In this document: positions 46,371 to 59,382 of the stretch, in pieces | Layout of the letters: the number at the start of each line of letters is the position of its first letter | How positions within the stretch are numbered: position 1 is the stretch's first letter | Source of the DNA: Streptomyces sp. P3 | GTDB taxonomy: Bacteria; Actinomycetota; Actinomycetes; Streptomycetales; Streptomycetaceae | Direction of reading: 5' to 3' | Length of the DNA: 64,000 bases | NCBI GenBank assembly: GCA_016893485.2 | Contig: JAFEKX020000001.1 | Span: forward strand, 1,612,001 to 1,676,000 | Notes under the pieces: model-generated | Databases searched by the model: none | Told to the model about the DNA's origin: nothing | Seen by the model: the letters and a program-made list of their open reading frames with translations, nothing else | Program-made: the position numbers and the translations under genes

Positions 46371-47675
46371 TCACCGATCACTCAGCGCCCGCCCACCCGG
46401 GGCCTCGCTCACCCCTCGCCCCCCACACATCCCGGCAGCGAGAACCGCCCCATCAGCCGGACTGATCAACAGGAAGGACCCGGTCAGCCGGGAGTCCGCG
46501 TACGCGTCCAGCGGCAGCGGCTCGGCGGTGTGCAGCACCATCGAGCCGATGTCGTTGACGGCGAACTCGCCGGGATCGCTGTCGTGGGCCAGGCCCTGAC
46601 TGAGGTCGATGCGGTGCGGGAGTTCGCGTACGACGGCCTTCACCGTACGGGTGCCGTGCTTGAGCAGGACACGCGAACTGACGTGCAGCGGACGCTCGTT
46701 GAGATGACAGACCGTGGCCCTGACGTCCCGCGTGGTGGCCGGTGCCTGCGCGCTGGGCGCGATGAGGTCGCCGCGCGAGATGTCGATGTCGTCCTCGAGG
46801 AGCAGCGTCACCGACTGCGGCGCATAGGCCTCCTCGACCGGCGTACCGAGGGCGTCGATACCGGTGATCGTGCTGGTGAGCCCGGACGGCAGGACGGTGA
46901 CCGGGTCGCCGACGCGCAGCACACCGGAGGCGATCTGCCCCGCGTATCCCCGGTAGTCGGGGTGCTCGGCGCTCTGCGGACGGATGACGTACTGCACGGG
47001 AAAACGGGCCGCCGCACTCGCGACGGCGGTGCCGACAGGGACGGTCTCCAGATGTTCGAGGACGGTCGGCCCGCCGTACCAGTCCATGTGCGCGGACGGT
47101 TCCACGACGTTGTCGCCGGCCAGCGCCGAGATGGGGATCGCGGTGACCTCGGGGATGCCGAGTTCGCTTGCGCAGGCCGTGAACTCCTCAGCGATGGCGG
47201 CGAATACGGGCTCGCGGTAGTCGACGAGGTCCATTTTGTTGACGGCGAGGACGACGTGCGGGACGCGCAGCAGCGCGGCGATGGCGGCATGGCGGCGGGT
47301 CTGTTCGACGACACCGTTGCGCGCGTCGACGAGGACCACCGTCAGCTCGGCGGTGGAGGCACCGGTGACCATGTTGCGGGTGTACTGCACGTGCCCGGGG
47401 GTGTCGGCGAGGATGAACCGCCTGCGAGGCGTGGCGAAGTAGCGGTAGGCCACGTCGATGGTGATGCCCTGCTCGCGCTCGGCGCGCAGCCCGTCCGTGA
47501 GGAGCGCGAGGTCGGGGCCGTCCTGTCCCCGGTTCGCCGACGCCCGTTCCACGGCCTCGAGTTGGTCGGTGAGGACCGACTTGGAGTCGTGCAACAGCCG
47601 TCCCACGAGCGTGGACTTGCCGTCGTCGACGGAGCCCGCCGTGGCGAAGCGCAATGTGCCGATGGTGGTGGCCAT
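46371..47675 (-). CDS. cysN: Sulfate adenylyltransferase subunit 1 (CysN)
   Basis: Intact, 434 residues. GTPase subunit that drives ATP sulfurylase: GSVDDGKSTLVGRLLHDSK (P-loop), EREQGITIDVAYRYF, LADTPGHVQYTRNMVTGA and VNKMDLVDY, then EF-Tu-like barrel domains. It starts 2 bp after cysD. Last gene of the long minus-strand operon, so here it probably supplies APS for PAPS rather than for sulfide assimilation. Confidence 0.92.
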   Translation of the reverse strand: MATTIGTLRFATAGSVDDGKSTLVGRLLHDSKSVLTDQLEAVERASANRGQDGPDLALLTDGLRAEREQGITIDVAYRYFATPRRRFILADTPGHVQYTRNMVTGASTAELTVVLVDARNGVVEQTRRHAAIAALLRVPHVVLAVNKMDLVDYREPVFAAIAEEFTACASELGIPEVTAIPISALAGDNVVEPSAHMDWYGGPTVLEHLETVPVGTAVASAAARFPVQYVIRPQSAEHPDYRGYAGQIASGVLRVGDPVTVLPSGLTSTITGIDALGTPVEEAYAPQSVTLLLEDDIDISRGDLIAPSAQAPATTRDVRATVCHLNERPLHVSSRVLLKHGTRTVKAVVRELPHRIDLSQGLAHDSDPGEFAVNDIGSMVLHTAEPLPLDAYADSRLTGSFLLISPADGAVLAAGMCGGRGVSEAPGGRALSDR

Positions 47676-47677
47676 GA

Positions 47678-48613
47678 TCAGAAATACCCCTCGCGCTTGC
47701 GGTCCTCCATGGCGGCCTCGGACAGCTTGTCGTCGGCCCGGGTGGCGCCCCGCTCGGTCAGCCGGGAGGCGGTGATCTCGTCGATGACCTGCTCGATGGT
47801 GACGGCACTGGAGTCGACCGCGCCGGTGCACGACATGTCACCGACGGTCCGGTACCGCACCTGCCGCTTCTCGACGGTCTCGCCGTCCCCTGGCCCGCCC
47901 CAACTCCCAGGCGTCAGCCAGAGTTCGCCCCGTCGGAAGACCTCGCGCTCGTGGGCGTAGTAGATGTCGGGGAGGTCGATGCCCTCGCGGGCGATGTACT
48001 GCCAGACGTCCAGTTCGGTCCAGTTGGAGAGCGGGAAGACGCGGACGTGTTCGCCGGGCGCGTGGCGGCCGTTGTAGAGGTTCCACAGTTCGGGCCGCTG
48101 CCGGCGCGGCTCCCACGCCCCGAACTCGTCCCGCAGCGAGAACACCCGCTCCTTGGCGCGGGCCTTCTCCTCGTCCCTACGACCGCCACCGAACACCGCG
48201 TCGAAGCGCTCGCTCTGGATCTTCTCGGTGAGCGGGAGCGTCTGGAGCGGGTTGCGGGTCCCGTCGGGACGTTCGCGCAGCACACCCCGGTCGATGTAGT
48301 CCTGTACGGAGGCCACATGGAGCCGTAGTCCATGTGCGGCCACCACACGGTCGCGGTACTCAAGGACCTCGGAAAAGTTGTGTCCGGTGTCCACATGAAG
48401 CAGCGAGAACGGCACCGGCGCCGGCGCGAACGCCTTCAGCGCCAGATGCAGCATCACGATGGAGTCCTTGCCGCCGGAGAACAGGATCACCGGCCGCTCG
48501 AACTCACCCACCACTTCACGGAAGATGTGGACCGCCTCCGACTCCAGGGCGTCCAGGTGCGGCAGCGTGTACGGGTTCTGCGTACCGGCCGCGTGCTTGG
48601 CGGCGACAGTCAT
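47678..48613 (-). CDS. cysD: Sulfate adenylyltransferase subunit 2 (CysD)
   Basis: Intact, 311 residues. PP-loop ATP pyrophosphatase FSGGKDSIVMLHLALKAF, then HVDTGHNFSEVLEYRD, AVFGGGRRDEEKARAKER, FPLSNWTELDVWQYI and MSCTGAVDSSAVT. Forms APS from sulfate and ATP together with CysN. Overlaps cysC by 4 bp. Confidence 0.93.
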   Translation of the reverse strand: MTVAAKHAAGTQNPYTLPHLDALESEAVHIFREVVGEFERPVILFSGGKDSIVMLHLALKAFAPAPVPFSLLHVDTGHNFSEVLEYRDRVVAAHGLRLHVASVQDYIDRGVLRERPDGTRNPLQTLPLTEKIQSERFDAVFGGGRRDEEKARAKERVFSLRDEFGAWEPRRQRPELWNLYNGRHAPGEHVRVFPLSNWTELDVWQYIAREGIDLPDIYYAHEREVFRRGELWLTPGSWGGPGDGETVEKRQVRYRTVGDMSCTGAVDSSAVTIEQVIDEITASRLTERGATRADDKLSEAAMEDRKREGYF

Positions 48614-49191
48614 GCCAACTCCTTTCGCACGAGCAACGCGTGCAGCGCGTCCACTGATTCGACGGCCCGCTCGGCATGCGCGTCGATCCGCAGATCGGGG
48701 TGGGCGGGCTCCTCGTAGGGGTCGTCCGCTCCGGTCAGTCCGGAGATCCGGCCGGCCGCCTGCTGGGCGTACAGGCCCTTGACGTCGCGCTCCGAGCAGA
48801 CGGACGCCGGGGTCGCGACATGCACCTCCAGGTACCTCGTCCCGGACCTCTCGTGGCGTCGGCGGACCGACAACCTGGAGTCCGCGTACGGCGCGATCAC
48901 CGGTACCAGGACCATCACGCCGTTGCGTGCGAGCACTTCGGCGACCAGGCCGATCCGCTGGACGTTGAGGTGCCGGTCCTCGCGGGAGAAGCCGAGCCCG
49001 GCCGACAGGAACTTGCGGATCTCGTCGCCGTCGAGCACCTCGACCCGGCGCCGGTCCTCACGCAGTCGCTCCGCGAGCGCGGCGGCGATGGTGGACTTGC
49101 CCGCGCTCGGCAGCCCGGTCAGCCACACGGTCGCGCCGGGCCAGCAGGTGCAGAACTCCGGCTTCGCCAGCGTGGATTGGCCAACGCTCAT
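48610..49191 (-). CDS. cysC: Adenylylsulfate kinase (CysC)
   Basis: Intact, 193 residues. VWLTGLPSAGKSTIAAALAE is the P-loop; LDGDEIRKFLSAGLGFSRED, RIGLVAEVLARNGVMVLVPV and DVKGLYAQQAAG follow. It phosphorylates APS to PAPS, the sulfate donor of sulfotransferases. Overlaps the lysK stop and the cysD start by 4 bp each. A PAPS-forming kinase in an operon facing a sulfotransferase gene points to dedicated sulfation. Confidence 0.93.
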   Translation of the reverse strand: MSVGQSTLAKPEFCTCWPGATVWLTGLPSAGKSTIAAALAERLREDRRRVEVLDGDEIRKFLSAGLGFSREDRHLNVQRIGLVAEVLARNGVMVLVPVIAPYADSRLSVRRRHERSGTRYLEVHVATPASVCSERDVKGLYAQQAAGRISGLTGADDPYEEPAHPDLRIDAHAERAVESVDALHALLVRKELA

Positions 49192-58335: not shown

Positions 58336-58350
58336 GATCACTCCCCTGTC

Positions 58351-58603
58351 CATAGGGATTGCCCGTAGGGATTGCTCGTAGGGACTCGTTGGGATCTCAT
58401 CTCCCTGGAGTCAAACACCCGCCGAGCCGGTCGGCCTCCCGAGCCGATTACATCGTCGTGCCAATTTCGAGGACGGGGACAGCGGTTCGGCTAATAATCC
58501 GAGGAAGGCCCGCAGCTCACGCCGTAATCAGAATGATGACCCCTGTGCACCCTTCAACTGCACACTGCGTCGGTGCTACGGTCCGAATGCGAAAGGAGGA
58601 TCA
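58351..58603. promoter_or_regulatory. Divergent control region of the LysW operon and sulfotransferase gene
   Basis: AT-richer than its surroundings. Three 13-bp spaced iterons (TAGGGATTGC at 58353 and 58366, TAGGGACTCG at 58379) lie at the operon side and are candidate activator sites. On the other side AAAGGAGG precedes the sulfotransferase ATG. The single place for master control of the whole pathway. Confidence 0.6.
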
Positions 58604-59382
58604 ATGAACAACGGAGGATCAATGAAGAATTCATCCCGGGCGAGCGAATCGATCCCGACCGAGAACCCGCGCATTATCGCGATGTGGAGCGCGCCCCGAT
58701 CCCGTTCCACCGCGTTCCTCCGCATGATGATGGAGCGCGAGGATCTCACCACGCTGCACGAGCCCTTCTCCCACCTGGCGGACTTCGGTTCGACGGAGGT
58801 GGCGGGCCGCACGATCGACACCGAGGTGGGACTGATCGAGGCCATCCGCGAACTGGCCGGGACCACCCCGGTCTTCTTCAAGGACACGACGGACTTCCGC
58901 TTCCCGGCGGTGCTGGCGGACCAGCGCTTCCTGACGGAGGCCCGGCACACGTTCATCATCCGGAAGCCGGCCGAGGTCATCGCCTCGCACTACGCGCTCA
59001 ACCCCGAGGTCACGGCCGACGACATCGGCTTCGGGCGACTGCACGAACTGTTCGAGGCGGTCGGTACGGCGACCGGTGACGTCCCCGTCGTCGTGGATTC
59101 CGACGACCTGCTCGACCGCCCCGCCGACACCGTCAGGAGTACTGCGCCCAGGTCGGCCTCCCCTTCCTCCCCGACACCCTGAACTGGGCGACCGGGATGC
59201 GCGAGGAGTGGCGCAAGGCCCCGCAGTGGCACCAGGACGCGGGCCGGAGCGCCGGCTTCACGCGCGCTCCCCGGGAGTACGAGTTCACCGTGGACAACCA
59301 CCCGGTGCTGGCCGACTTCCACCGCCGGCAGCTGCCGTACTACGAGGAACTGCACCGGCACCGGCTGTCACCGCAGGGCTGA
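58604..59382 (+). CDS. PAPS-dependent sulfotransferase, one frame change
   Basis: MWSAPRSRSTAFLRMMMER is the 5'-phosphosulfate-binding loop and TFIIRKPAEVIASHYAL the 3'-phosphate-binding region of the sulfotransferase family; FFKDTTDFRFPAVL and LHEPFSHLADF also fit. An indel near 59136 must be corrected to read EYCAQVGLPFLPDTLNW and the C-terminus VLADFHRRQLPYYEELHRH. About 259 residues. It is divergent from the operon that makes PAPS and a dihydroxy-diamino acid, so it likely sulfates a hydroxyl to create a leaving group. A second ATG with its own GGAGG lies 18 bp downstream. Confidence 0.82.

Follow-up and report, generated by a model that had tools for sequence, protein, structure and literature searches.

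A 64-kb stretch of the genome of Streptomyces sp. P3 (10.0 Mb in two contigs), hereafter referred to as the window, was analyzed and found to harbor a conserved cluster of 17 genes at positions 46,371-61,634. By comparison with known pathways, this cluster is probably a self-contained member of the azinomycin/ficellomycin lineage without a non-ribosomal peptide synthetase (NRPS) beside it, which would produce a free aziridine amino acid and likely export it. As neither a candidate for the oxidation of C3 nor a carrier thioester was found, a monocyclic (open) aziridine amino acid is predicted as its product. The genes are arranged in the order U2-U3-AT-TKN-TKC-LysW-X-Y-Z-K-CysC-D-N, where U2 and U3 are homologues of AziU2 and AziU3, AT is an aminotransferase and TKN and TKC are the N- and C-terminal subunits of a split transketolase; a divergent sulfotransferase (SulT) is followed by a MarR-family regulator, an EamA transporter and a response regulator (RR). 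The original prediction for this stretch had ended the cluster at SulT (46,371-59,382). This range holds the core operon and SulT, but the conserved unit runs on to about 61,634, so that MarR, EamA and the NarL-type RR are added to the set noted earlier.

Elements of such a route are described in the excerpted text of four papers: the 2,6-diamino-5,7-dihydroxyheptanoate (DADH) of vazabitide A and S56-p1 is built on an amino-group carrier protein (PMC9303977), the azinomycin route consists of transketolase extension, sulfation and aziridine closure (review; PMC9570651), AziU3/U2 is termed functionally an aziridine synthase (PMC12559475), and structure 7WUX contains O7-sulfo-DADH (PMC11168924). 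By analogy, LysX would join the amine of glutamate to the C-terminal glutamate of LysW, and LysZ and LysY would convert the side chain of the LysW-bound glutamate to the semialdehyde. The split transketolase would add two carbons, the DegT aminotransferase would yield LysW-bound DADH and LysK would release DADH from LysW. CysD, CysN and CysC may supply 3'-phosphoadenosine 5'-phosphosulfate, SulT would sulfate O7 of DADH, and the U2/U3 pair is predicted to expel the sulfate and to close the aziridine between N6 and C7. The resulting product would be 2-amino-5-hydroxy-6,7-epiminoheptanoate (C7H14N2O3, calculated [M+H]+ 175.108), which EamA might export, as its family resemblance alone suggests, while MarR and RR may control the cluster. 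The earlier proposal of a LysW-carrier route to an aziridine unit or its azabicycle is thus retained, by comparison, for the LysW carrier, DADH, the O-sulfate and the aziridine, but not for the azabicycle. The amino acid had also been called sulfated; since the sulfate is probably a leaving group, this term fits the intermediate rather than the product.

The protein assignments carry most of this reading. U3 (56,680-57,750, minus strand; BtrH_N, PF14399) matched the solved AziU3/Azi29 chains (7wuw, 7wux) in a PDB sequence search with E-values of 3.5e-67 and 8e-67. No Pfam family was found for U2 (57,740-58,341, minus), which contains one frame break; both halves were located, and the C-terminal half matched solved Azi28/AziU2 (7wuw, 8gs1) at an E-value of about 2e-33. 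The LysW-type amino-group carrier protein (53,215-53,389, minus, end approximate) scored 47.1 bits with PF21344 (cut-off 27) and is the sole match to this family in the Streptomyces sp. P3 genome. Its tail in the window sits beyond a frame break near the 3' end, and the S. hokutonensis LysW terminates in ...EEDWGE, i.e. an EDWGE-type tail ending in glutamate. The remaining carrier-pathway genes, all on the minus strand, encode the LysX-type ATP-grasp ligase (52,320-53,210; PF22626 and PF08443), the LysY/ArgC-type reductase (51,299-52,323; PF01118 and PF22698 on two pieces separated by one frame break), the LysZ-type [LysW]-amino acid kinase (50,360-51,289; PF00696, frame break near the 3' end) and the LysK-type M20 hydrolase (49,188-50,353; PF01546, with frame breaks). 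Their S. hokutonensis copies score above the NCBIfam cut-offs of TIGR02144 (LysX), TIGR01850 (LysY), NF010659 (LysZ) and TIGR01902 (LysK). A carrier pathway is recognized by a zinc ribbon of the LysW type and by its own LysX ATP-grasp ligase, both of which are present.

The features of the DADH-aziridine lineage were likewise found, namely the split transketolase, the DegT aminotransferase, the sulfotransferase and the AziU2/AziU3 homologues. TKN (54,421-55,293, minus; PF00456, E-value 5e-48; start set by the 290-residue protein P0121) and TKC (53,465-54,424, minus; PF02779 and PF02780) lie next to the DegT/DnrJ/EryC1 aminotransferase (55,298-56,623, minus; PF01041, E-value 7e-89), which is the only aminotransferase recognized in the cluster and is not of the LysJ/ArgD type. 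SulT (58,604-59,382, plus; PF19798) is split by one frame break into two tblastn pieces; the S. hokutonensis SulT scored 66.4 bits with PF19798, and the open part of the window's SulT gave no notable PDB relative (one match, E-value 0.23). The minus-strand operon is completed by adenylylsulfate kinase CysC (48,610-49,191; PF01583, E-value 8e-55) and by the small and GTPase subunits of sulfate adenylyltransferase, CysD (47,678-48,613; PF01507, E-value 7e-44) and CysN (46,371-47,675; PF00009 and PF22594), the latter forming one cluster edge. At the other end, MarR (59,427-59,963, plus) scored 22.7 bits with PF01047, slightly below the cut-off of 24.6, and is 92% identical to the S. hokutonensis protein, and the candidate exporter of the EamA/DMT family (59,960-60,980, plus) contains frame breaks and was assigned from PF00892 in the S. 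hokutonensis copy. The outer edge is formed by the NarL/LuxR-type RR (60,974-61,634, minus), also with frame breaks; its two main tblastn pieces are 96 and 100% identical to the S. hokutonensis protein, which carries Response_reg and GerE. Pfam, PDB sequence matches and coordinates thus bear out the gene content, order and strand given in the original prediction, including the two larger junctions of 56 and 75 bp, which are U3-AT and TKC-LysW. Beyond CysN, a Sir2-family gene and an EF-hand gene (44,465-46,259) adjoin the cluster; in S. hokutonensis, Actinacidiphila oryziradicis and S. xylophagus, a search next to the cluster found no counterpart of the Sir2 gene.

These three relatives (L002-L004) share the cluster type, designated type A, with the window. 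In a U3 search, 351 of the 7,995 candidates scored reached an E-value of 1e-3 or better as relatives; scanning named genomes provided 68 loci, three of which are those of these relatives. Both S. hokutonensis and A. oryziradicis carry all 17 genes, and S. xylophagus carries 16, as MarR was not found in its cluster. Of 74 rows, most of them with flanks of 10 kb, only the four of type A had an EamA match. When about 20 kb past each end was compared, the shared genes ended at RR and CysN in all four genomes, apart from two weak cross-matches farther out (28-31% identity) that are not in register. Type A is therefore an island with clear edges in differing surroundings. The matches listed for transketolase-N include at least about 20 that are 97-100% identical, one of which is the window's own contig. 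Among 392 genomes of the genus, 31 gave any U3 match at 1e-3 or better and only the window's genome exceeded 64% identity, hence type A is rare in the species sample. Searches of plasmids returned distant U3 homologues.

Residues of likely importance were assessed in the three relatives only, leaving out the window's own broken genes. Columns that are near-invariant in other loci were kept in all three for U2 (27/27), U3 (34/34), LysW (16/16) and SulT (33/34), and likewise for AT (93/94), TKN (59/60), TKC (41/42), LysX (26/27), LysY (78/79), LysZ (43/46) and LysK (56/58). The ratio of non-synonymous to synonymous substitution rates was 0.13-0.38 for 16 genes between S. hokutonensis and the other two relatives (MarR left out; CysD partial) and 0.08-0.43 between the two closest relatives. 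Judged by their sequences, the relatives have largely intact clusters on which purifying selection acts.

In agreement with what had been noted before, neither an A3 adenylation motif nor an NRPS probe match was detected in the window. No adenylation motif or NRPS match was present within about 20 kb of any of the four type-A clusters either, so that the NRPS adenylation or condensation domain by which an azabicycle-peptide cluster would be recognized was seen in none of them (0/4). These four genomic contexts back the earlier suggestion that the end product may be formed without an NRPS. For comparison, 66 loci with at least 16 kb of flank, window and type A included, were scored with adenylation and condensation probes; ten rows below 16 kb, two of them with a condensation match, were left out, and longer flanks were used only with type A and with L016, L026, L040, L041 and L068, which had first shown no NRPS. 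NRPS probes matched in 59 of the 66 loci, in L016 and L068 after extension of the flank. The seven loci without a match are the four of type A, L026 (Micromonospora sp. KC723) and L040 and L041 (Streptomyces sp. MP131-18 and S465).

In the azabicycle of known compounds the aziridine nitrogen is bonded to C3. Closure of this ring would thus join nitrogen to C3, and the candidate enzymes seen with other clusters, namely an NRPS carrier, an acyl-CoA dehydrogenase, a cytochrome P450 (P450) and a 2-oxoglutarate-dependent (2OG) oxygenase, were all not found in the conserved unit. Formation of the azabicycle from these 17 genes alone was rejected on this ground. The latter three families, when beside an NRPS, are our own candidates for C3 oxidation and not an established criterion; their probes gave no match in the flanks of the three relatives, and the far right flank of the window contains a partial dehydrogenase match (35% over 203 residues) and a P450-like match (26%). 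An acyl-CoA dehydrogenase relative is present in 41 of the 59 full NRPS-bearing loci and was not found in 18; it is a candidate for azabicycle closure. Pfam confirmed the dehydrogenase in L006 and also in L076, where it shares one protein with a thioesterase domain. AlkZ-like (HTH_42) DNA glycosylases linked to the cluster were searched for as well. None turned up in the type-A clusters, and the closest one on a shared contig lies about 270 kb off, in A. oryziradicis. As this query also found none next to U3 in the flanks of related loci, it does not discriminate. DUF4135 had no match in the Streptomyces sp. P3 genome, and the controls were silent as well.

Several observations weigh against a self-contained aziridine pathway. 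LysW scores below both NCBIfam LysW cut-offs, though above that of Pfam. EamA is a family-level match only, below both of its NCBIfam cut-offs and with no relative in the PDB sequence search; its substrate is a guess. The absence of an NRPS is not unique to the type-A clade, as L026, L040 and L041 also lack a match, and adenylation-domain matches occur elsewhere in all four type-A genomes, with many condensation matches in three. Finally, 8 of the 17 genes are frame-broken as read in the Streptomyces sp. P3 assembly (U2, LysW and LysZ close to the 3' end, as well as LysY, LysK, SulT, EamA and RR), and CysD is broken in S. hokutonensis.

These frame breaks could mean that the cluster has decayed and is non-functional. 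A single uninterrupted frame is seen for U3, both transketolase halves, LysX, CysC, CysD, CysN and MarR, and 429 of the 432 AT residues are in one frame. Compared with the 91%-identical S. hokutonensis copy, the window has 17 gaps not divisible by three inside gene intervals. At 15 of these the window lacks a single base (14 times within the eight broken genes, once in AT). The remaining pair consists of a 34-base insertion within the LysZ interval and a 2-base gap in CysD, a gene whose frame is open in the window and broken in S. hokutonensis. In controls computed across the whole U2-CysN stretch rather than genes only, 2 such gaps separated A. oryziradicis and S. xylophagus, the closest other type-A pair (95% identical), 14 separated S. 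hokutonensis and A. oryziradicis, and 21 the window and A. oryziradicis. The 14 gaps show that divergence alone also yields such gaps, which is a point in favor of decay. However, the breaks are mostly single-base deletions, the completeness score of the genome is 74.7% and argJ also matches in two separate frames, which makes assembly error likely. That the relatives keep the near-invariant residues of U2 and U3 and show purifying selection leads to the same view, and assembly error is probably the cause of the frame breaks; the near-identical transketolase-N relatives likewise argue against decay. This explanation was therefore rejected and is considered very improbable. The assembly appears rich in frame breaks (e.g. 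C1:2169281-2170401), with argJ and several condensation-domain matches in pieces, so that the absence of a gene from the Streptomyces sp. P3 genome has to be read with care.

An ordinary LysW-dependent biosynthesis of lysine or arginine would account for the LysX, LysY, LysZ and LysK families. With a DegT-type aminotransferase, a transketolase, a sulfotransferase and AziU2/U3 homologues in the same cluster, and with ArgJ of the acetyl-ornithine route encoded elsewhere in the genome, this primary function was rejected as scarcely credible. It is also conceivable that the aziridine or DADH unit comes from the cluster and that an unlinked NRPS or a stand-alone ligase joins further residues and closes the azabicycle. 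A genome-wide search, as had been proposed earlier, gave 37 rows of condensation-domain matches in Streptomyces sp. P3 and 15, 2 and 23 in the three relatives, which together with the adenylation matches elsewhere makes use of the unit in trans possible, and the 59 of 66 loci that match NRPS probes point the same way. The four contexts free of NRPS matches, the draft genome of A. oryziradicis with only two weak condensation matches (E-values 2e-18 and 2e-11) and the adjoining position of NRPS and pathway genes in most other loci speak against this explanation, which we regard as rather unlikely. A last alternative is that the end product is an isomer or is ring-opened, e.g. a 5-hydroxypipecolate formed by attack of the alpha-amine on the aziridine, or that the pathway stops at O7-sulfo-DADH. 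On chemical grounds the alpha-amine would be within reach of C6 of a 6,7-aziridine, and the excerpted text of PMC8346489 describes 6-chloromethyl-5-methoxypipecolate in chloromyxamides, which come from another cluster. No ring-opening gene was recognized in the cluster, however, and a stop at the sulfate is unlikely as none of the near-invariant residues of U2 and U3 is lost in the relatives; as a whole this alternative is judged decidedly unlikely.

Taken together, release of a free aziridine amino acid is the preferred reading. More tentatively, and with some doubt on our side, the cluster may represent a stand-alone bacterial pathway to a free, secreted aziridine alpha-amino acid, derived from an antibiotic cluster that lost its peptide synthetase. 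Aziridino-diaminopimelate is an inhibitor of diaminopimelate epimerase. If the reading is true, the cluster would make a hydroxylated, decarboxy analogue of this compound, which could thus be a natural, electrophilic antimetabolite aimed at lysine, diaminopimelate or ornithine enzymes. Azinomycin and other known aziridine products of the lineage alkylate DNA, and peptide machinery is encoded in their clusters. A minimal set of 17 genes lacking it would uncouple the synthesis of the warhead from peptide assembly and provide a compact source of a reactive amino acid. It would further follow that azabicycle closure in the related NRPS-bearing clusters requires an NRPS-bound substrate and the neighboring acyl-CoA dehydrogenase. 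This step could then be tested by subtraction, with the genes that are present in ficellomycin-type clusters and absent here as the candidate list. Among the entries listed from the open-licence PMC literature, titles and opening abstract lines revealed no paper on an NRPS-free aziridine cluster.

A tree was built from 79 U3 rows and midpoint-rooted for drawing only. In it, the type-A rows group with two protein-only relatives in a single clade (support 100/98), whose sister (100/99) is a clade of 25 rows, S. ficellus among them. When undetermined rows are left out, the NRPS state requires three changes on this tree, and most simply type A lost its NRPS. In Micromonospora sp. KC723, U2/U3 form a compact cluster together with CysD/CysN; the flanks examined gave no NRPS match, on a contig that ends about 15 kb upstream of U3. 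Given this locus, the loss may have happened more than once. L040 and L041 represent a second U2/U3 lineage without an NRPS match. In L040 (6.2-9.3 kb of the locus), pyridoxal-dependent decarboxylase and arabinofuranosidase-like genes lie immediately upstream of U2, so that a decarboxylated product could result. Two U3 loci of different types each were seen in S. roseicoloratus (L006/L067) and in Streptomyces sp. NRRL F-6131 (L039/L052).

With the LysW-dependent lysine/arginine pathway of Thermus and archaea, the cluster shares the LysW, LysX, LysY, LysZ and LysK families; to our knowledge, that pathway includes no transketolase, sulfotransferase or U2/U3. A 78% transketolase-N relative (P0204) is present in Streptomyces sp. 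SoC090715LN-17, which we take to be the S56-p1 strain. Vazabitide A and S56-p1 resemble the predicted product in the LysW-type carrier and the DADH route (excerpts of PMC9303977 and PMC9570651) and differ in that the former excerpt describes them as non-ribosomal peptide natural products. The AziU3/AziU2 pair of azinomycin biosynthesis (PDB 7WUW, 7WUX, 8GS1) is matched by sequence, whereas the azinomycin-type clade (L042-L044, L046, L047) stands far from type A in the U3 tree, and matches of NRPS, P450-like and 2OG-like kind lie close to its U3 genes. AziU3 matched the U3 of L042 with an E-value of 1e-179, compared to 1e-61 for L050 and 4e-48 for L048. Azinomycin-type U3 genes, in the clade of L042, were observed in Dactylosporangium aurantiacum, S. 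violens, S. flavidovirens, Streptomyces sp. NRRL S-340 and Microtetraspora glauca. A gene-by-gene comparison had been suggested earlier and was carried through by tblastn for S. ficellus, the ficellomycin producer. Of the 17 genes, 15 are common to both, i.e. all but MarR and EamA, which had no match at that locus (RR 44%). LysX and LysK of S. ficellus are divergent from the main block, and the locus contains amidinotransferase-like and ATP-grasp-like genes, named from reading the sequence without Pfam. Only S. ficellus has NRPS and acyl-CoA dehydrogenase probe matches, which are 87% and 84% identical to those of L006, where the NRPS has the domain order condensation-adenylation-thiolation-thioesterase (C-A-T-TE) by Pfam.

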